From positions 434,001 through 498,000 of the forward strand of contig NC_009718.1 of assembly GCF_000017545.1 (NCBI RefSeq): 64,000 nucleotides of DNA, written 5' to 3'. This document shows, piece after piece, positions 49,371 through 58,301 of the stretch (the first letter of the stretch is position 1; the number at the start of each line of letters is the position of its first letter). The DNA comes from Fervidobacterium nodosum Rt17-B1. GTDB lineage: Bacteria; Thermotogota; Thermotogae; Thermotogales; Fervidobacteriaceae. Position numbers and translations under genes: made by a program. Under the pieces are notes generated by a model. It saw only the letters and a list, made by a program, of their open reading frames with translations. It did no database searches and was not told the DNA's origin.

Positions 49371-49400
49371 AAACAGTATCCCCATCAAGGGATACTGTTT
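49371..49400 (-). terminator. Terminator of the sugar importer operon
   Basis: AAACAGTATCCC and GGGATACTGTTT form a perfect 12-bp stem with a six-base loop, followed on the minus strand by TTTTTATAATTT. It lies about 54 bp past the glycosyltransferase gene and before murE. The remaining ~200-bp gap is AT-rich and should contain the murE promoter, which I could not fix. Confidence 0.85.
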
Positions 49401-49453: not shown

Positions 49454-50893
49454 TCAAATATTTTTTATCTTCTCTATAAAATTTTTGACATCATTTTTGA
49501 TATATTCAACGTTAACATTAATATCTTTTAGGTCTTTTGAATTATTTATTGAATTTAAAATATTTTCAAGATATTTCTCAGCTGTGTTTTCCCAAGTATA
49601 TCTTTTCGCTAATTCTATGGACTTAGAGTTATCAAATTGTGTTAATCCAATATATAATTTATGCGATATATCTTCAATATCTTCTGGGTCTATCAAAAGT
49701 CCCTCGTTGTTAGATAAAATTTCTAACGGTCCTCCATTCTTTGTCGCTACAACAACTAATCCACAAGCAGCTGCTTCAACTATGGCTAAGCCAAAAGGTT
49801 CGTATAAAGCTGGTAATACAAAAACTGAATGACGTTTTGCACCTATTCTGTAAAGTGCTGCTAAGCTCTGTTGATCCGCAATATTCAAGAAAAATATGCT
49901 TTTACCAATTTCACCTTTACTTTCATTAACTATCTCACGTAAAATTTCGGCTTCTTCATTATTATTTTCATCTATAAATTTCAGTACATCATCTATCCCA
50001 CGAACTACAATAATAAGGTTCGCAGATTTTTTAAGTTTTTCGTTATTTAGAAATGCCCTTACAACGGCTATATGATTTTTTTTCCTATCAATACGACTTG
50101 ACATAATTATAAAAGGTAATTTCTGTCTTCCAACCGATGTTTTTGATAGAACGTTTGTTACATATTTCTCTATTATCCCATCTTGGCTTTGTACTTCCGT
50201 ATTGAAAATCTTGTGATTAATTCCTGGAGGAATAACTTTGAATTTATCACTGTAAGGATCTGCTGTGTATAATTTGTGTGAGTATTGTTCGTACCTTTCT
50301 TGAGATGTACTGCAAACGATGAATGAAGAGTATTTTATCGACAAATTCTCAGCTAATATCCGCACAGAAAATCTATATTTTTTCTCAAGTTCATTTTGGT
50401 CAAATCCGTTTTTCAGCATTTTTTCAAGTTTCCATGCACCCAAAGAATGCCCGGTAAAAGAAAATGGGATACCTGTTTTTTCAAAAAACAAAACACCGCT
50501 TATTCCACCATCTGCGTAATGTGTTGTAACAAAATCAGGGAACTCACCTTCTTTTTCGTATAATTCGTAGATTCTATCAACATACTCAGGAAGATACTTC
50601 CAAAGGTCTTCTTTCCTTAAAAACTTTTCGCCACCGAATGGAATTCTAACAATCCTTACGTTAGGCGAATCAGGGTAATAATCAAATGGCTCAGAAAATT
50701 CTGGCCAGTCTTTATCAATTATCTGTCTGGTGATGATGTCGACTTGTATACCTTTCGAAGTTATAGCCTTTGCAAGTTCTTTAACATAAACAAGTTGTCC
50801 ACCAAAATCTGGATGCTCAGTTAAATGACTGTCATTCTTGTCAAAATTTCCTTGAGGGTTAAAAAAAGCTATTCTTTTCACTATATTCTTCAT
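49454..50893 (-). CDS. Sucrose-phosphate-synthase-like GT4 glycosyltransferase
   Basis: In 479 residues the N-terminal domain begins FFNPQGNFDKNDSHL and has the donor/acceptor motif HPDFGGQLVYVKELAKAI near residue 28. FSFTGHSLGAWKLEKML near residue 145, KVIPPGIN near residue 218, SSRIDRKKNHIAVVRAF near residue 265 and LPALYEPFGLAIVEAAACGL near residue 358 all match sucrose-phosphate synthase and related enzymes. It lacks the C-terminal phosphatase domain. Likely reactions are NDP-glucose plus fructose 6-phosphate or fructose; direction and acceptor are unknown. It is the last gene of an importer operon, directly after a fructokinase-like gene (6 bp). Confidence 0.82.
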   Translation of the reverse strand: MKNIVKRIAFFNPQGNFDKNDSHLTEHPDFGGQLVYVKELAKAITSKGIQVDIITRQIIDKDWPEFSEPFDYYPDSPNVRIVRIPFGGEKFLRKEDLWKYLPEYVDRIYELYEKEGEFPDFVTTHYADGGISGVLFFEKTGIPFSFTGHSLGAWKLEKMLKNGFDQNELEKKYRFSVRILAENLSIKYSSFIVCSTSQERYEQYSHKLYTADPYSDKFKVIPPGINHKIFNTEVQSQDGIIEKYVTNVLSKTSVGRQKLPFIIMSSRIDRKKNHIAVVRAFLNNEKLKKSANLIIVVRGIDDVLKFIDENNNEEAEILREIVNESKGEIGKSIFFLNIADQQSLAALYRIGAKRHSVFVLPALYEPFGLAIVEAAACGLVVVATKNGGPLEILSNNEGLLIDPEDIEDISHKLYIGLTQFDNSKSIELAKRYTWENTAEKYLENILNSINNSKDLKDINVNVEYIKNDVKNFIEKIKNI

Positions 50894-50899
50894 AATCTA

Positions 50900-51805
50900 T
50901 CAGTCCTCCAAAATATCTCTGTTCAATTCAACATCAGCTCCAACAAAACCAAGTATGTAAGACGCAACTTTACTCCCTATTATACAAGATTGAACAAAAT
51001 CTTTTCCATTTAATATTCCATAATACATTCCAGCCCAAAAGCCATCACCAGCACCCGTTGCGTCAACAACAATTTTTGCATAACTTGGAATATGGACTAT
51101 TTCAGCTCCATCTGAAACATATGCACCATACTTACCAGCAGTTAAAACAACATTTTTAACTCCAGCTTTATGAAATTCACCTATGTAGTAACGCACGGCA
51201 TCTTCTAATGGATAATCAACATCGCCAAACATAGCTATCGCATCGTCTAAAGAAGGTTTAGAATATGTAGTGTGTTTCAATATATAATTTATCCTATCTT
51301 TTGTTATTTTGCCACACTCGAATATTTTGTCTCTACAGTTTGGGTCAAAGCTTATTGAAATACCACTATTAATTGCCTTTTCCACAATCGAAATCGTTTT
51401 TTCAAAAGTCTCACTGAAAGAGATAGGCCAGCAACTCAAATGTAAAATTTTTATACCTTGAAAAATATCCTCACTTGGCAATTCTAAAAATCTATCTGCT
51501 CCTCTTAAAACAAAAAAATCAGGGCTTCCAGGAGTTTTTTGGACAAAGACAAGTGTGGTTCCAAAGAAATTATCTATTTGGATATATTTCGTATCCACAC
51601 CATTTTGACTTAGTTTATCTATAATTCGTTCACCAATAATGTCATTCCCAACTTTGGAAAGAATCCGTGTAGGAATACCCAACTGAGCAAGGTACCGTGC
51701 TATATTACCGGGTGAACCGCCTATTTTCAGCTCAAAATGCTCGGCAGCATCAAAAATTTCTTCTGTAATCATATCGGCAAGTAATTCACCTACAAAAAGT
51801 ACCAT
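50900..51805 (-). CDS. PfkB-family sugar kinase, probably fructokinase
   Basis: The 301-residue ribokinase-family protein has GGSPGNIARYLAQLGIPTRI near residue 30, NDIIGERIIDKLSQNGVD near residue 57 and the C-terminal ATP/anion-hole signature VVDATGAGDGFWAGMYYG near residue 247 with the catalytic aspartate. The first Gly motif and overall length fit fructokinases. Its place between an ABC sugar importer and an SPS-like transferase supports fructose as substrate (inference). ATG behind AGGAGGA. Confidence 0.85.
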   Translation of the reverse strand: MVLFVGELLADMITEEIFDAAEHFELKIGGSPGNIARYLAQLGIPTRILSKVGNDIIGERIIDKLSQNGVDTKYIQIDNFFGTTLVFVQKTPGSPDFFVLRGADRFLELPSEDIFQGIKILHLSCWPISFSETFEKTISIVEKAINSGISISFDPNCRDKIFECGKITKDRINYILKHTTYSKPSLDDAIAMFGDVDYPLEDAVRYYIGEFHKAGVKNVVLTAGKYGAYVSDGAEIVHIPSYAKIVVDATGAGDGFWAGMYYGILNGKDFVQSCIIGSKVASYILGFVGADVELNRDILED

Positions 51806-51841
51806 CAGACAGTCCTCCTGATAACATACATTTTTAATCTC

Positions 51842-52687
51842 TTAACCTTTCACTGCACCTGAACTCAAACCTGCGATTATTCTATTTTGGAATATTAACA
51901 CAAGTACCACCAAAGGTACGGTAACAATTACCGCAGCCGCCATTAATTGTCCCCAAGGTTGTTCGTATTGACTTCTACCAGCAAACATAGCTATTGCAAC
52001 TGGAACTGTGTAAAAATCTGGTTTTTGCATGAATGTAAATGCAAACAAAAATTCATTCCATGCACTGATAAATGTCAGCAATCCTGTAGCGACAAGTCCT
52101 GGTGCTGACATTGGAAATACAATTTGAAATAGGGTTCTGAGCCTTGAGCAACCATCTATTGCCGCAGCTTCCTCTATCTCTTTTGGTAAATCTCTAAAGA
52201 AATTCTGTAATATCCAAGTTGTTAAAGGAAGTGTGATAGCAACATACGGAATTATAAGTCCCTGATAAGTGTTTATAAATCCCAGTTTTCTAAGTATAAC
52301 AAACAACGAACCTAATATCGATATCTGAGGGAACATACTAACTGAAAGAATCAAAGCCATTACTATCGCTTTTCCTTTCATCCTAAGCCTTGCTATTGCA
52401 TACCCTGCAAATGAACCAAAAATAAGAGTTGTTATAGTTGTTATACCGGAAACTATTATACTATTTATTATATTAACGTGGAATGGTCTTTCTTGGAATA
52501 CTTTCACATAATTTGAGAACGTTGGAGACTTTGGCCAAAGTGTTGGATTGGACTCAAACAATTCGATATTGGGCTTAAGCGAGGATATAACTGCCCAGTA
52601 AAATGGAAAAATACACCAAACCAACACAAAAATAACAGCTATGGAAAGAACAATTTTGTATATTATTTTCTTAGTTTTAGTCGACAT
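51842..52687 (-). CDS. ABC sugar transporter permease (MalG-like)
   Basis: This permease has six hydrophobic segments and the EAA loop PKEIEEAAAIDGCSRLRTLF near residue 183 that docks with the ATPase. The end NRIIAGLSSGAVKG is typical of MalG-type subunits. I choose the ATG at 52687 seven bases after GAGGTGA. It partners with the upstream MalF-like gene. No ATPase gene is in the operon, so a shared MsmK-like ATPase encoded elsewhere is probably used. Confidence 0.9.
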   Translation of the reverse strand: MSTKTKKIIYKIVLSIAVIFVLVWCIFPFYWAVISSLKPNIELFESNPTLWPKSPTFSNYVKVFQERPFHVNIINSIIVSGITTITTLIFGSFAGYAIARLRMKGKAIVMALILSVSMFPQISILGSLFVILRKLGFINTYQGLIIPYVAITLPLTTWILQNFFRDLPKEIEEAAAIDGCSRLRTLFQIVFPMSAPGLVATGLLTFISAWNEFLFAFTFMQKPDFYTVPVAIAMFAGRSQYEQPWGQLMAAAVIVTVPLVVLVLIFQNRIIAGLSSGAVKG

Positions 52688-52714
52688 TTTCTTCACCTCG
52701 CTAACCAAACAAAA

Positions 52715-53602
52715 TCAATCAAGTTGCAGTTTTAGTGATTTTATATAAATAATTGCAAATATCGATATAAGCAAGAAAATAACAACCGAAAGTGCAGATC
52801 CGTAACCAAACCATGCGCCTGTAAATGCTCTATCCATAAGCAATACCCTATTGTAAACAGCAAGAGTTTCAGTATTAACACTTCCACGGGTCATTATAAA
52901 CACTACGTCAAACACTCTCAACGCATCCAAAGTTCTGAAAATAAGTGCAACTGCTATAGTAGGCCTCAACATCGGGAGAGTTATACTTGTAAATCTTTTC
53001 CATAAGTTTGCTCCATCTATTCTTGCTGCTTCGTAAAGCTCTTCAGGAATTAGTTGAAGACCCGCTAAAATTAAAAGAGCCATAAACGGTGTTGTTTTCC
53101 AAACGTCAACGGCTATAATTGCCCACATAGCTGTTTTTGGCATTCCAAGAATAGGAACCCCTTGTTCTATAATTCCCAAATTCTCAAGCCATTTTGATAT
53201 TATTCCACCTTGATCGTTGAACATCCATTTCCACATCTGAGAAGAAATCGCTGTTGGAATAGCCCATGGGATAAGCATCGCAGCCCTTACCATACCTCTA
53301 AGTTTAAACGGCTGATTGACTATTAGCGCAATCAACAAACCAAAAGCGGTTTCTAACGCCACAGAAACAACAGTAAAGAATATAGTATTTTTTAGCGCGA
53401 ATACAAACCTTTCGTCTTTAAATAGTTCAACATAATTTTGAAAACCAACAAACTTTCTTTCTATATCAGGCCTAAGTCCAAATTCATAAAAGCTGTCATA
53501 AAAAGTCTTAAAGAGTGGGAAAAACGCTATGATAGAAATAACTAATATAGCAGGGAAAACCATCCACCACGCAATTACCGTCTCTTTTGTTTTGGCTTTC
53601 AA
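52715..53602 (-). CDS. ABC sugar transporter permease (MalF-like)
   Basis: In about 295 residues it has six hydrophobic segments, the family block ERKFVGFQNYVELFKDERFV near residue 46 and the EAA loop PEELYEAARIDGANLWKRF near residue 192. TTG at 53602 follows GGAGGTGAAATCC; the GTG three codons earlier is inside the ribosome binding site. A terminator-like hairpin separates it from the binding-protein gene. Confidence 0.9.
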   Translation of the reverse strand: MKAKTKETVIAWWMVFPAILVISIIAFFPLFKTFYDSFYEFGLRPDIERKFVGFQNYVELFKDERFVFALKNTIFFTVVSVALETAFGLLIALIVNQPFKLRGMVRAAMLIPWAIPTAISSQMWKWMFNDQGGIISKWLENLGIIEQGVPILGMPKTAMWAIIAVDVWKTTPFMALLILAGLQLIPEELYEAARIDGANLWKRFTSITLPMLRPTIAVALIFRTLDALRVFDVVFIMTRGSVNTETLAVYNRVLLMDRAFTGAWFGYGSALSVVIFLLISIFAIIYIKSLKLQLD

Positions 53603-53628
53603 GGATTTCACCTCCTGAATATATTTAC

Positions 53629-53653
53629 AAAAACCGGGGACTTTCGCCCCCGG
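53629..53653 (-). terminator. Intra-operon terminator/attenuator after the binding-protein gene
   Basis: On the minus strand CCGGGG, an eight-base loop and CCCCGG are followed by TTTTTG. It lies 58 bp past the binding-protein gene and 27 bp before the first permease start. Partial termination here would give more binding protein than permease, a common design in ABC importers. Confidence 0.8.
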
Positions 53654-53710
53654 CGGGAATATAAAGGTAGTGGGAGCTAAAAATTGTTGCCTAAATATTA
53701 AAGTACTAAA

Positions 53711-54955
53711 TTATTTACCGAGGACTTTGTTAAGTTCTTTGGCCATGTCTTCTATCGCTTTTTGTGCCGTTGTTTGTTGTGTCAAAGCTGCGTGGACATA
53801 CTTTTGAATTACATCAGAAATTTCGCTGTATTTCGCTGTCCTTGGTCTTGGAACTGCGTTAATAAACATTCCATAAAGTTCAACCATAAATGGTGCAGCT
53901 TTCTTAAGTTCTGGGTTTTTATAAACATCCATCATTGTTGGATTTTGTCCTGCATTGATTGCTTTGTAAAGCTGCTCATCATAGCTTGTAAGGAATTTTA
54001 CGAGTTTCTTCGCAGCTGCTTTTTCTTCAGGTGTTGCATTTTTATTTATACCAAGCATCCAACCGCCAAGTGTTGCCGCAGACTTTCCAGATGGACCTGC
54101 TGGAAGTGGTGCAACTCCAACTTTACCAGCGACCTTTGATTCTTTTGGATCATTCAAAAGTGCCCAAGCGTATGGCCAGTTTCTCATAAATACCGCTTCA
54201 CCATTTTGGAATTTTCTTCTTGCTTCTTCTTCCATATACGTTGTAACTGCTTGTGGTGATACCTTTTCTTTGTAAATCAAATCAACCATGAACTGCAAAG
54301 CTTTAACAGCCGCTGGACTGTTAACAACAACGTTTCCCGCGTCATCAAGCACATCTCCGCCGAATGATACAAGGTATTCCATGAAATCACAAACAAGTCC
54401 CTCATACCTTGCGCCTTGCCATACAAACCCGACCATATTCTTTTCTTTTGCTGTGATTGTCTTTGCCATCTTTACAAGTTCATCCCATGTCTTTGGAGCT
54501 TCTTTAAAACCGTATTTTTGGAGAAGGTCTTTACGATAGTACAAAAGCCCAGCATCTGTAAACCATGGCACTGCAACAGTCTTTCCACCAACTGTTGCTG
54601 CCTTGACTGTACCAGGTAAAAACTTACTGAGTTCAAAATAGTCTTTATCAGCTGTTAAATCTTCAAGATATGGAGCAAATTCTGCTGGCCAGATAACGTC
54701 AAGCATGAGTACTGTTGGTTCTTTTTCCCCCGATGCCAAATATGTGACATACAAATCATGTCTTTCTGTAGAAGAATTTGGCATTGGCATAACGGAAACT
54801 TTGATATCAGGGTTTGCTTTCATAAACCTGTCAAGTTGCGCATAAAGAACCTCAAGTTCCTTTCCTACCGCTCCCGCTGTCATTGTGATGGTAACCCTGG
54901 AAAACGTTACCACTGATAAAACTAACAATAAAGCCACAAATACAAACTTCTTCAT
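53711..54955 (-). CDS. ABC sugar transporter substrate-binding protein
   Basis: The 414-residue protein has a cleavable-looking signal peptide (KKFVFVALLLVLSVVTFS) without a lipobox cysteine. The mature protein has the cluster 1 solute-binding fold: FMKANPDIKVSVMPMPNSS near residue 43, EPTVLMLDVIWPAEFAPYL near residue 78, VPWFTDAGLLYYRKDLLQKY near residue 123 and FMRNWPYAWALLNDP near residue 256. Aromatic residues fit oligosaccharide binding; trehalose, sucrose or maltose are candidates. It is the first gene of the importer operon, ATG behind GGGAGGTG. Confidence 0.92.
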   Translation of the reverse strand: MKKFVFVALLLVLSVVTFSRVTITMTAGAVGKELEVLYAQLDRFMKANPDIKVSVMPMPNSSTERHDLYVTYLASGEKEPTVLMLDVIWPAEFAPYLEDLTADKDYFELSKFLPGTVKAATVGGKTVAVPWFTDAGLLYYRKDLLQKYGFKEAPKTWDELVKMAKTITAKEKNMVGFVWQGARYEGLVCDFMEYLVSFGGDVLDDAGNVVVNSPAAVKALQFMVDLIYKEKVSPQAVTTYMEEEARRKFQNGEAVFMRNWPYAWALLNDPKESKVAGKVGVAPLPAGPSGKSAATLGGWMLGINKNATPEEKAAAKKLVKFLTSYDEQLYKAINAGQNPTMMDVYKNPELKKAAPFMVELYGMFINAVPRPRTAKYSEISDVIQKYVHAALTQQTTAQKAIEDMAKELNKVLGK

Positions 54956-54983
54956 ACAAACACCTCCCAGTTTTAAGTGTAGG

Positions 54984-55032
54984 TATGTTCGAATTTCAAA
55001 ATGAATATACCATATAATCTTTCAAACCACAA
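54984..55032 (-). promoter_or_regulatory. Importer operon promoter with a degenerate ROK-type site
   Basis: On the minus strand TTGTGG (55027-55032), a 17-bp spacer and an extended TGG-TATATT (55004-55009) form a promoter. Directly downstream, ATGTTCGAATTTCAAAATG (54984-55002, plus strand) matches 13 of 19 positions of the perfect palindrome at 55181-55203. Binding near the start point would block transcription. Confidence 0.55.
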
Positions 55033-55180
55033 AATATTGTTTTTTCAAAATAATCAAAGGACAAAAGTGAAAAAATTAATATTACGCTTATAAACGTTTT
55101 TTATATAGTTTTTTAATCAAAAAAAATGGATTTTTGGTATGATGAAATATGCATAATATGTTGTAAAATAAATTCCGATA

Positions 55181-55203
55181 ATATATTCGAAATTCGAATA
55201 TAT
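55181..55203. promoter_or_regulatory. Perfect inverted repeat, candidate operator of the ROK regulator
   Basis: ATATATTCGAA and its complement TTCGAATATAT flank a single A, a perfect 11-bp inverted repeat in the 352-bp gap between the importer operon and treT. It lies 105 bp before the treT ATG. The ROK regulator gene is directly downstream of treT. Assignment to that regulator is inference. The remainder of the gap is AT-rich; I could not fix the treT promoter with confidence. Confidence 0.65.
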
Positions 55204-55307
55204 GTGTGGAAATATTGTTTCATTTTCCACAGTTCAGTTGAAAAATTAGGTCTTCATTCAAATACTTTAATTTTTTAATTCTAAAAACCAAGAAGGAGGT
55301 TATTAAG

Positions 55308-56528
55308 ATGACGGTTGAACTTCCAGTGAAGAAACTTAGCGATTACAGTGTCTTTGCCAAAGATGATGTAGAGAAGATATTCGAAATTGGAAAAAAGATG
55401 AAAGGACTTAAAGTTGTTCACGTAAATGCAACAGCGTACGGTGGCGGAGTTGCGGAACTTCTGATGACAATCGTTCCACTAATGCGTGATGCTGGAGTTG
55501 ATGCGAGTTGGGAAGTACTTGAAGCTCCTATGGAATTTTTCAATGTTACAAAAAAACTACATAACACACTCCAAGGTGCAGATATTGAAATTACTGATGA
55601 AGAATGGGCCCTTTATGAAAAAGTTAATGAAGAAAACGCGAAAAAACTAAATTTAGATGCAGATGTTATTATCATTCACGATCCACAACCTGCTTATATA
55701 CCGCTTTACAAGAGCGGAAATGCACATTACATCTGGAGATGTCATATAGACACAAGCACACCAAATTTGAAAGTGTGGAACAGACTTACATCCAAGATGA
55801 ATATGTACAAAAAAGCCCTTTTCCACATAATGGATTACGTTAGAGAACCATTTGATAAAATAGCTGTTGAATTTCCACCTAGCATCGATCCACTAAGCCC
55901 CAAGAATAGAGAAATGTCAAAAGAAGAACTTGAAAAAATAGCGAAAACGTATAATATAGACATGACAAAGCCATTAATAACCGTAGTTGCAAGGTTTGAT
56001 CCGTGGAAAGATTTATTCTCATCTATAGATGTATATAGAAAAGTTAAAGAGAAATTTGACGTACAACTCGCAATTGTTTCCGCAATGGCAAAAGATGATC
56101 CGGAAGGCTGGATTTTCTTTGAAGATGTGCTTAGATACGCAGGTACCGATAAAGATATTCTTTTCTTAACGGACCTCAAAGGAGTAGGGCACTTGGAAGT
56201 TAATGGAATTCAAAGATTATCCACAATAGGTTTACACACAGCTACGAGAGAAGGGTTTGGACTTGTTATAAGTGAAATGATGTGGAAACAACATCCAGTT
56301 GTCGCAAGACCTGTTGGTGGTGTTAAAATACAAATAGACGATGGTATAAACGGATACCTCAGAAACGATGTAAATGAACTTTCTGAAGCTATTGTGGACC
56401 TGCTTAGTAATAAACAAATTCTCGAGAAAATGGGAAAGAATGCAAAAGAAAAAGTAAGATCGACTTACTTATCAACTGCTCATGTTAAGAGATATTTTGA
56501 AGTTATAGAAAGTGTGATTAATGGTTGA
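55308..56528 (+). CDS. treT: Trehalose glycosyltransferring synthase TreT
   Basis: TreT makes trehalose from NDP-glucose and glucose, reversibly. The 406-residue GT4 protein has VHVNATAYGGGVAELLMTIV near residue 37, ADVIIIHDPQPAYIPLYKSG near residue 118, YIWRCHIDTSTPN near residue 139, VVARFDPWKDLFSSIDVY near residue 225 and the donor-site GFGLVISEMMWKQHPVVARP near residue 316, all typical of TreT. ATG behind AAGGAGG. It is divergent from the sugar importer and followed by a ROK regulator. Confidence 0.9.
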   Translation: MTVELPVKKLSDYSVFAKDDVEKIFEIGKKMKGLKVVHVNATAYGGGVAELLMTIVPLMRDAGVDASWEVLEAPMEFFNVTKKLHNTLQGADIEITDEEWALYEKVNEENAKKLNLDADVIIIHDPQPAYIPLYKSGNAHYIWRCHIDTSTPNLKVWNRLTSKMNMYKKALFHIMDYVREPFDKIAVEFPPSIDPLSPKNREMSKEELEKIAKTYNIDMTKPLITVVARFDPWKDLFSSIDVYRKVKEKFDVQLAIVSAMAKDDPEGWIFFEDVLRYAGTDKDILFLTDLKGVGHLEVNGIQRLSTIGLHTATREGFGLVISEMMWKQHPVVARPVGGVKIQIDDGINGYLRNDVNELSEAIVDLLSNKQILEKMGKNAKEKVRSTYLSTAHVKRYFEVIESVING

Positions 56529-56576
56529 TAAAATAATTATCAAAATAATTATTTAGTTACAAACGCTGGGGGAATT

Positions 56577-57683
56577 TTGTTGAAAAATGAAGCAAAGATA
56601 CTTCTCCAAATCTTGCGAAATAAAACAATTCGTAGGAAAGAACTCGAAGAAATTATCGATGTTACCCCTTCAACTATGACTTATTTACTTGATAAGCTAA
56701 AAGGTTATATAGAAATTGAAGAGGGGGATACCAACCTTGGTAAACCCCCTCAATTCATTTCGCTTTCAAAAGACGCCTGGAAAGTTTTGTCTATAAGTGT
56801 TGGGCGTGAAAAAATTCGTGCCATACTTTACAATGCCAAAGGCGAAGAGCTTGAAAGGTCAGAATATCGTGTTAAACACGAAAATCTCTCGAACGATGGT
56901 ATAACAAGTTTAGTCAAAAACATAATTGACAAATTTTATGATTATGATAGTATCGGTATAGCTTTTTCTGGTAATGTCGTAGAGGATAAGGTCTACTCTA
57001 CTATACTAAAACTTGATAAGTACGATCCTGTAAAGTCTCTAAAATTAAAAAACCTTGGAATTCCTTATGTTATCATATCTGACGTGGAAGCAATAGCCGC
57101 ATACGAATCAAAAACAACTGGTAATGATAAAGTTTTCGTACTGAATTACGGAACAGGTATAGGTGCATGTTACTATGAATATCATGCACTTTTTACTCGT
57201 GATGAATTCAAAGTTATACCCCTTGGTCATATTTATCTAAATGGTGAAGAAAAATGTTACTGCGGAGCTAAAGGATGTCTTGAAACTGTTGCGTCAGATT
57301 ACGTTGCGGTGAAAAATTACTTAGGTCAAAATATTGATTTCGTTCATTTTATAGAAAACGAAGAGACTTTCTGGGAAGAATTGAAAGATGTAAGAAACCT
57401 TTATAAACAGAATGAGGAAGTCGCTGAACGTGTCTATTCTCAAATTATTGACAATCTTGCGTTTGTTGTTGGGAACATAAGTATGATACTTGGACTTGAT
57501 GAGATAACTTTGTACGGTGAAGGAACTTCAACTTGGTTTGCAAACAAGCTTGAAAAAAGAATAAATGAATTATCGAAAAATTTCAACGTTAGAGTACGAC
57601 ATGGTAAAGTTATGGATGTTGTTGAGAGAGGAACTTCCTTGGAAGCTGCCGTTGCTTTTGTAAGAAAAAAATTTTCAAAATAA
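56577..57683 (+). CDS. ROK-family transcriptional regulator
   Basis: In 368 residues an N-terminal winged helix (RRKELEEIIDVTPSTMTYLL) precedes a ROK sugar-kinase-like domain with the phosphate loop VLNYGTGIGACYYEY near residue 196 and the zinc motif EEKCYCGAKGCLETVAS near residue 222. The ATP motif is degenerate, as expected for a repressor such as XylR/NagC. It probably binds glucose or a disaccharide-derived ligand and controls treT and the importer through the palindromes in the shared gap. The start is one of two consecutive TTG codons behind GGGGGA. Confidence 0.9.
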   Translation: MLKNEAKILLQILRNKTIRRKELEEIIDVTPSTMTYLLDKLKGYIEIEEGDTNLGKPPQFISLSKDAWKVLSISVGREKIRAILYNAKGEELERSEYRVKHENLSNDGITSLVKNIIDKFYDYDSIGIAFSGNVVEDKVYSTILKLDKYDPVKSLKLKNLGIPYVIISDVEAIAAYESKTTGNDKVFVLNYGTGIGACYYEYHALFTRDEFKVIPLGHIYLNGEEKCYCGAKGCLETVASDYVAVKNYLGQNIDFVHFIENEETFWEELKDVRNLYKQNEEVAERVYSQIIDNLAFVVGNISMILGLDEITLYGEGTSTWFANKLEKRINELSKNFNVRVRHGKVMDVVERGTSLEAAVAFVRKKFSK

Positions 57684-57695
57684 GGGGTGAGCTGT

Positions 57696-58301
57696 GTGTA
57701 CATAATATTAATTGGTGGAGGTACAGGTTCCGGAAAAACAACGGTTACGAGAAAAATAATGGAAAGGATAGGTAACGAAAAATGCGTTATGTTACCTATG
57801 GATAATTATTATAGAGATATGTCACATATACCATTAGAAGAAAGAAAAAAGTATAATTACGACCATCCCGATATGATTGAACACACACTTATAGTTAGAC
57901 ACGTGAAAGAGTTACTATCTGGGAAATCCATTAATTTACCAGATTATGACTTTGCACAGTACACAAGGACACAAAATTTCACAATAATTGAACCAAAGCC
58001 AATATTGCTTATAGAAGGTATATTCGCGCTTTACTACGAAGAACTTCGAGCACTCGCAGATTTGAAAATCTTTGTTGACACCGAAGGGGATGAACGTTTT
58101 ATCAGAAGACTTCAAAGGGATATTTTTGAAAGAGGAAGAACAATAGAATCAGTTATACAACAATACCTTAGCACTGTTAAACCAATGCATGATGCTTACG
58201 TTGAACCCACAAAAAAACATGCCGATATAATAATTCCGAAAGGTGGATATAACGAAAAAGCAATAGATGTAGTTGTTGAATTTGTACAAAATTTAGTGTA
58301 A
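57696..58301 (+). CDS. udk: Uridine kinase
   Basis: Udk phosphorylates uridine and cytidine in the pyrimidine salvage pathway. In ~201 residues the P-loop is LIGGGTGSGKTTVTRKIM at the start. MDNYYRDMSHIPLEERKKYN and the DHPDMIEHTLIVRHVKELL block follow near residue 35, then LLIEGIFALYYEELRALADL and the lid RLQRDIFERGRTIESVIQQY. I choose GTG at 57696, six bases after AGGGGTGA, over the GTG inside the ribosome binding site. It follows the ROK gene directly, so a link to nucleotide-sugar supply is possible. Confidence 0.93.
   Translation: MYIILIGGGTGSGKTTVTRKIMERIGNEKCVMLPMDNYYRDMSHIPLEERKKYNYDHPDMIEHTLIVRHVKELLSGKSINLPDYDFAQYTRTQNFTIIEPKPILLIEGIFALYYEELRALADLKIFVDTEGDERFIRRLQRDIFERGRTIESVIQQYLSTVKPMHDAYVEPTKKHADIIIPKGGYNEKAIDVVVEFVQNLV

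Follow-up and report, generated by a model that had tools for sequence, protein, structure and literature searches.

One of the questions raised by this locus of Fervidobacterium nodosum Rt17-B1 is why an operon for a trehalose-type importer should also carry genes for a sugar kinase of the PfkB family and for a GT4 transferase resembling SPS. Do these parts form one module, and on what sugar, and in which direction, would the added pair work? The locus lies in the window that was analysed, a stretch of 64,000 nucleotides (contig NC_009718.1, positions 434,001 to 498,000), and its genes, whose families were assigned by Pfam and NCBIfam profile searches, run treE-treF-treG-PfkB-SPS-like on the minus strand and, divergently, treT-treR(ROK)-udk on the plus strand (Table 1). 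An earlier note on this DNA had given the genes with coordinates that prove exact and families that the profile searches confirm, and its picture of one ROK control region serving an importer, a fructokinase-like kinase and a pair of GT4 enzymes for disaccharides stands, as does its remark that the importer lacks an ATPase of its own, no ATPase gene being present in the cluster. The intergenic gaps are short (6 bp for PfkB/SPS, 36 bp for treG/PfkB and 3 bp for treR/udk); udk is probably co-transcribed with treR and has a putative role in the module. From its stem and tail, the hairpin 3' of the SPS-like gene is likely, if only weakly so, to end the treEFG-PfkB-SPS transcript; terminator-like hits across the region are no commoner than in shuffles. 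The hairpin behind the SBP gene may be a partial terminator or an mRNA-stabilising element.

Table 1. Features of the tre and PfkB-SPS locus (positions within the window).
Feature	Position	Strand	Basis
Terminator-like hairpin 3' of SPS-like gene	49371..49400	-	13-bp stem, then T-rich tail
SPS-type GT4 glucosyltransferase, 479 aa	49454..50893	-	TIGR02472, identity to 2r60
PfkB sugar kinase, fructokinase-like, 301 aa	50900..51805	-	PfkB 151.7 bits, GAGD motif
treG, ABC sugar permease	51842..52708	-	Pfam/NCBIfam
treF, ABC sugar permease	52715..53611	-	Pfam/NCBIfam
GC-rich hairpin between treE and treF	53633..53654	-	9-bp stem, 7 GC pairs
treE, solute-binding protein (SBP)	53711..54955	-	74% identity to T. 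maritima MalE3 (PDB 6dtq)
Operator-like site, treE side, TTCGAA-T-TTCAAA	54983..55005		Footprinted in relatives' treE-treT intergenic regions
Operator-like perfect 23-bp palindrome, treT side, ATATATTCGAA-A-TTCGAATATAT	55181..55203		Footprinted
treT, GT4 trehalose glycosyltransferring synthase	55308..56528	+	TreT_GT1 domain PF21269, 180.7 bits
treR, ROK-family regulator	56577..57683	+	Pfam/NCBIfam; gene order as in published Thermotogales TreR regulon
udk, uridine kinase	57687..58301	+	TIGR00235 258 bits, above cut-off

The tre part of the cluster is already known and is not new. In Rodionov et al. 2013 (PMC3750489), which includes F. nodosum among the species introduced, treEFG, treT and a trehalose-responsive ROK regulator, TreR, constitute a Thermotogales regulon, whose T. 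maritima orthologues are induced by trehalose, the effector, and assigned to trehalose utilisation. The F. nodosum cluster has in common with this regulon the SBP and permease orthologues, treT and the ROK regulator, with treEFG divergent from treT-treR and palindromic operators between; compared with the regulon as described in the text of that paper, the treEFG operon of Fervidobacterium also contains PfkB and the SPS-like gene, and treR is followed by udk. The sharing of operators by the two divergent arms, claimed earlier, is upheld by two palindromes, one perfect and one weaker, that are both footprinted across aligned relatives, and the perfect core occurs only once in the genome. These two operators, together with the tight spacing, argue for co-transcription of the pair with treEFG. 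The SBP aligns over 393 residues with MalE3 of T. maritima, which we take to be TreE. The treT product has the N-terminal domain PF21269 and the GT-B C-terminal domain of TreT (EC 2.4.1.245), its best solved relatives are P. horikoshii TreT 2x6q and 6zj4, and it does not pass the Thermococcales-specific model NF041139 (441 of 775 bits).

The interesting part of the cluster is the PfkB/SPS-like pair. Both nearest solved relatives belong to H. orenii, namely its SPS (PDB 2r60/2r66/2r68) at 48% identity and its fructokinase (3hj6) at 36%. Judged from the identity to 2r60, the fold of the transferase can be regarded as settled; identity to sucrose synthases is 28-29%, and the curated SPS model TIGR02472 is not passed (311 bits, under a cut-off of 576). 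The kinase combines the PfkB fold with the GAGD catalytic motif and is the only fructokinase-like member of the four PfkB proteins in the genome, yet it scores 102 of 450 bits against the curated fructokinase model NF006957 and stays below all curated kinase cut-offs. Position 178 of the transferase is Arg in all the SPS-like proteins and in both SPS references but Gln in both sucrose synthases, and K94/K155 are conserved along with R178. This residue matches the Arg that binds the F6P/S6P phosphate in SPS (EC 2.4.1.14; TeSPS R178, HoSPS R180); the TeSPS Arg contacts the phosphate of S6P (PMC7264703), and the H. orenii enzyme, the closest solved relative, was crystallised with F6P and sucrose-6-phosphate (PMC11046441). 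The protein starts at the GT domain, lacking the N-terminal region of sucrose synthase (EC 2.4.1.13), and has neither an SPP domain nor a linked SPP gene. Unidomain SPS enzymes exist too.

How far does the pair belong with the tre genes? Across the Fervidobacteriaceae, treT is present in 20/20 genomes and PfkB adjoins the SPS-like gene in 20/20, but the pair lies beside treEFG/tre genes in only 11 of the 20. In Thermosipho-type genomes it stands alone among housekeeping genes, far from any transporter or sugar regulator and with no good operator site upstream; the gene of about 460 aa behind treG in most of these genomes encodes an amidase, and so not a sugar enzyme. The PfkB and SPS-like trees mirror each other (r=0.91, 33 pairs, 0/2000 permutations), the correlation within the family being 0.95, versus 0.63-0.68 to treT, and the pair was transferred jointly between F. 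nodosum-type and two Thermosipho-type genomes in a move that treT did not share. On this phylogenetic evidence the pair is evidently mobile and independent of the tre genes. The single module of the earlier note is only partly borne out: the tre cluster and the PfkB-SPS pair are each conserved in their own right, and they come together in Fervidobacterium and a single sister genus. At 31 other loci PfkB adjoins the SPS-like gene in 16, is fused to it in two more (Chloroflexi and Elusimicrobia MAGs) and is replaced by an adjacent PRK-type kinase in a further six, this unrelated kinase often being the neighbour where PfkB is missing. At some loci outside the family, too, the pair has a treEFG-type importer as neighbour: L076 and L081 include GH65 and an ATPase as well, L089 includes a GalT homologue, and in L086 the pair is divergent from treEFG. 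Importer enrichment near PfkB-linked pairs is not significant (5/16 vs 1/13, p=0.18), and Halanaerobiaceae relatives of H. orenii have the adjacent pair with no tre importer at those loci.

F. nodosum is listed as sucrose-growing (PMC7795431). GH32 is absent from all 20 Fervidobacteriaceae genomes; elsewhere in the order, T. maritima and one further genus have it. The F. nodosum genome contains no invertase and no GH65. It does encode an AglA-type GH4 alpha-glucosidase, which might offer an alternative sucrose route; its GH13 proteins are of glucanotransferase-like, amylase-like and cyclomaltodextrinase types and match no sucrose-specific model. The neighbourhood of the pair yielded no dedicated sucrose-phosphatase, and at all loci the only HAD phosphatase candidate within 8 genes is a Cof-type gene seven genes off in two of them, which fails the curated SPP models. 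A search of the F. nodosum genome for a dedicated SPP gave Cof-type HAD matches only, from a model that also matches in T. maritima. An SPP may still be encoded further from the pair, or a Cof-type phosphatase of broad specificity may take its place.

Our preferred reading, held tentatively and at somewhat less than even confidence, is of two joined units, the second being a kinase-coupled SPS-type module for the use of imported sucrose. In the first unit, the TreR regulon, TreEFG would import trehalose and perhaps sucrose too, TreT would convert trehalose and NDP to NDP-glucose and glucose, and TreR would repress until trehalose is present. Catabolic use, one of the two readings offered earlier, is plausible here, and the T. 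maritima orthologues are trehalose-induced (PMC3750489), though the direction is deduced. The second unit, which comes last in the treEFG operon of Fervidobacterium and its sister genus, would have the kinase provide the phosphate and the transferase act on the phosphorylated form (F6P/sucrose-6F-phosphate), with the net reaction sucrose + ATP + NDP -> NDP-glucose + fructose-6-phosphate + ADP. Adjacency and fusion, mirrored trees, Arg178, the shared operators, sucrose growth without GH32 or GH65, importer neighbours elsewhere and the lack of a nearby phosphatase all point this way. Against it count the stand-alone pair of Thermosipho-type genomes, the non-significant importer test, the GH4 enzyme, a possible SPP elsewhere, the SPS equilibrium, which favours synthesis, and the PfkB family itself, in which we know of no sucrose 6F-kinase. 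A parallel is found in R. gnavus (PMC6521584), where a cytoplasmic sucrose kinase (AgaSK) acts on sucrose taken up by an ABC importer and a separate enzyme, sucrose 6F-phosphate phosphorylase, yields activated glucose and F6P; that system uses another kinase, whose product (S6P) the paper distinguishes from S6FP, and GH13_18 phosphorolysis, whereas cleavage by NDP and a GT4 enzyme is proposed here. A literature search that covered reverse SPS as well as sucrose synthase of Thermosipho-type bacteria returned nothing relevant.

Could the transferase instead split free sucrose with NDP to NDP-glucose and fructose, as a sucrose synthase running in reverse, with PfkB trapping the fructose as F6P? 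This proposal of the earlier note draws on gene evidence identical to that for the SPS-type sucrose-use module, and suits both the fructokinase kinship of the kinase and the missing invertase. The retained phosphate-binding Arg, present in every relative examined in place of Gln, means that such cleavage is not favoured by the sequence, and with the absent N-terminal region and the far higher identity to H. orenii SPS it leaves this reading unlikely. Biosynthesis of sucrose as a compatible solute, from F6P and NDP-glucose via sucrose-6-phosphate, with an unlinked phosphatase and the kinase recycling fructose, strikes us as an improbable alternative as well. The spsA-sppA-frkA-amsA operon of Synechococcus PCC 7002 (PMC11046441) likewise unites SPS and fructokinase, but includes SPP and amylosucrase, neither of which was found in F. 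nodosum, and lacks the importer and ROK regulator; sucrose is also suggested as an osmolyte in the H. orenii genome paper (PMC2626281), and the stand-alone pairs fit such a role. Biosynthesis is opposed by the near-total lack of SPP candidates around the pair, by the failure of the nearby Cof-type HAD on curated models, and by the position of the Fervidobacterium pair behind an importer in a regulon that external sugar induces in T. maritima.

More doubtful still is that the pair acts on another disaccharide or acceptor, for instance to a mannosyl-fructose-type or other F6P-derived product, its place behind treG being incidental. The sub-threshold curated scores of both proteins and the mobility of the pair would allow this; the close relationship to H. 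orenii SPS and the argument for co-transcription with treEFG go against it.

If the pair does split imported sucrose, as we prefer to think, the whole family would have a sucrose route without invertase, and SPS-type enzymes would be seen working catabolically and conserving energy. The most general form of this idea is speculative and itself rather unlikely: a widespread route in which a kinase (PfkB or PRK-type, sometimes fused) is obligatorily coupled to a reverse SPS-type GT4, with phosphorylation of sucrose at C6 of its fructosyl part and NDP-dependent cleavage to NDP-glucose and F6P, no phosphatase being involved. Were the pair biosynthetic, sucrose accumulation would be predicted in heterotrophic thermophiles. 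That kinase and SPS are paired in several phyla, that the kinase is of either of two unrelated types, and that there are two fusions but no linked phosphatase, provides a testable prediction for the many genomes in which such genes are annotated as 'sucrose synthesis'.

The tre half of the cluster is a member of a known system, since the TreR regulon has been published, TreT has been characterised and the window TreE is 74% identical to T. maritima MalE3 (PDB 6dtq). According to Rodionov et al. (2013; PMC3750489), TreR of T. maritima is a ROK regulator that responds to trehalose and controls treEFG and treTR, of which treTR is strongly induced by trehalose. TreT has been characterised in the same organism (PMC4490520); the title of the paper cited for it mentions making NDP-glucoses, which is the reaction in reverse. 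The variant part is the addition of a PfkB sugar kinase and a sucrose phosphate synthase (SPS)-like transferase. These two genes form a genuine unit, mobile and widely distributed, that has been recruited into the tre regulon.

All the genes that the earlier note had assigned to a candidate disaccharide module were recovered at the same coordinates, and profile matches confirmed their families. On the minus strand the genes lie close together, with gaps of 99 bp (treE/treF), 6 bp (treF/treG), 36 bp (treG/PfkB) and 6 bp (PfkB/SPS-like), and on the plus strand 48 bp (treT/treR) and 3 bp (treR/udk). Two hairpins are suggestive signs of transcript structure and only that, because overall matches in the regional scan equal the shuffle background. 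Alignment of the treE-treT intergenic region from ten genomes, in one of which the treE-side site falls outside the stretch cut out, reveals two conserved TTCGAA-N-TTCGAA-type sites, one at each divergent promoter. In the F. nodosum genome (a single contig of 1,948,941 bp) the perfect palindrome core occurs once and, when up to 3 mismatches are allowed, the motif shows no excess over its control, so that the regulon looks local. A transposase-like ORF separates treE from treT in one Fervidobacterium genome (G015). In the two genera where the cluster is joined, udk is kept behind treR in 11/11 genomes; it was not seen adjoining treR in Thermosipho-type genomes.

Features of the cluster and of related loci (window positions, or locus:positions)
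Feature	Position	Strand	Context or basis
Terminator-like hairpin	49400-49371	-	3' of SPS-like gene; hairpin scan
GC-rich hairpin			between treE and treF; hairpin scan
Operator-like site	54983-55005		treE side; intergenic alignment
Operator-like site	55181-55203		perfect 23-bp palindrome; intergenic alignment
udk	57687-58301		
Transposase-like ORF	L038:3967-4998		G015
GH4	L144:628-2046		G000:C1:1456243
SPS-PfkB fusion	L073:7980-10514		Chloroflexi MAG, 844 aa
SPS-PfkB fusion	L078:766-3222		Elusimicrobia MAG, 818 aa
PRK-type kinase	L065:7275-7949		SPS-adjacent
PRK-type kinase	L067:7139-7951		SPS-adjacent
PRK-type kinase	L069:7271-7966		SPS-adjacent
PRK-type kinase	L080:9262-10224		SPS-adjacent
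PRK-type kinase	L082:7354-8001		SPS-adjacent
PRK-type kinase	L084:6673-7350		SPS-adjacent
GH65	L076:13167-15524		
Nucleoside-diphosphate kinase	L064:9590-10018		Halanaerobiaceae
Nucleoside-diphosphate kinase	L071:9525-9944		Halanaerobiaceae
Split PfkB and SPS	L087:6306-9200		Marinitoga lauensis

The SPS-like gene is found in 20/20 Fervidobacteriaceae genomes versus 0/25 others of the order, and synteny upheld the proposed module only in part: PfkB adjoins the gene in all 20, but the pair lies behind treEFG in just 11, from two genera. The remaining nine have treEFG/treTR intact at another place and a free-standing pair, next to dnaN/folE2 (seven genomes) or rpoBC and an amidohydrolase (two), as named by eye from translations of representative loci. 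The PfkB and SPS-like trees mirror each other (r=0.91, 33 pairs), with a within-family correlation of 0.95 as against 0.63-0.68 with treT. The pair has been exchanged as a unit, leaving the tre genes behind, since in two Thermosipho-type genomes (G023, G024) both proteins cluster with F. nodosum and treT does not; at these loci (L035, L034) an F. nodosum-type pair has displaced the native one.

When 84,980 species genomes were scanned, within the reach of the two peptide patterns used, 31 further SPS-like loci emerged outside the family. Sixteen are PfkB-adjacent (Thermotogota, Halanaerobiaceae, Clostridia, Atribacteria, Chloroflexi, Limnochordia), two encode fusions with a C-terminal PfkB domain (both domains by Pfam), six adjoin members of a distinct family of PRK/uridine-kinase-type P-loop kinases with 41-62% mutual identity (Proteobacteria and Calditrichota, some also with an adjoining glgC-like gene), and seven have neither. 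Neighbourhoods vary: LacI-PfkB-SPS-treFGE-GH65-ATPase in two Clostridiaceae MAGs (L076, L081), where GH65 comes closest to phosphorylases of kojibiose and maltose; ABC-PfkB-SPS-GalT homologue (L089); PfkB-SPS divergent from treEFG (L086); ABC/GH1/SPS/PfkB/TreS, with GH1 called from translation (L066); AgaR/DeoR-type regulators (L060, L063); and, 3' of SPS, glycogen phosphorylase (L062) or, directly, nucleoside-diphosphate kinase. Importers are not significantly enriched at PfkB-linked over PfkB-less SPS loci (5/16 versus 1/13, p=0.18). In Marinitoga lauensis PfkB and SPS are each split into two frames, representing pseudogenes or long-read errors.

TeSPS binds the phosphate group of sucrose-6-phosphate (S6P) through Arg105 and Arg178 (PMC7264703), whose counterparts in the window protein, mapped by hand on a printed alignment, are K94 and R178. 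Position 94 is non-discriminating, being Lys or Arg in SPS-like proteins and sucrose synthases alike, whereas R178 is invariant across the SPS-like proteins of the set, be they linked to PfkB or to a PRK-type kinase, fused or unlinked, is shared by H. orenii SPS, and is replaced by Gln in both sucrose synthases. H. orenii SPS, for which complexes with fructose-6-phosphate (F6P) and S6P are known (PMC11046441), is placed by the tree among PfkB-linked sequences. By sequence the window transferase is thus SPS-type, despite scoring 311 of the 576 bits of the curated cut-off, and its handling of F6P/S6P is moderately supported. Of the four PfkB proteins that the genome encodes, the neighbouring kinase alone is fructokinase-like. 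That transferase and kinase are functionally coupled has good support from their adjacency, from their co-inheritance and co-transfer, and from the fusions.

The direction of the pathway could be biosynthetic, as argued chiefly by the free-standing pair of Thermosipho-type genomes and by the known sucrose-synthesis operon spsA-sppA-frkA-amsA. Catabolic use on sucrose is what the evidence points to, given the lack of a linked phosphatase, the place within a sugar-induced importer regulon and a sucrose-using family without invertase. A motif scan, which can miss genes, found no HAD-type phosphatase candidates near the pair save a Cof-type gene seven genes off in two loci. Growth on sucrose is recorded for F. 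nodosum, as well as for several species of Fervidobacterium and Thermosipho (PMC7795431), and GH32 is absent from 20/20 family genomes and present throughout one other genus of the order. The F. nodosum genome has no GH65 and no GH13 with a sucrose-specific match; its single GH4 closely resembles AglA of T. maritima and is a possible sucrose hydrolase. The gene for this AglA-type alpha-glucosidase lies at another place in the genome, beside a 1-phosphofructokinase-like gene. Working catabolically, the pair would carry out the net reaction sucrose + ATP + NDP -> NDP-glucose + F6P + ADP and, if the NDP-glucose were recovered by a pyrophosphorylase, one ATP equivalent would, by our reasoning, be saved relative to invertase and two kinases.
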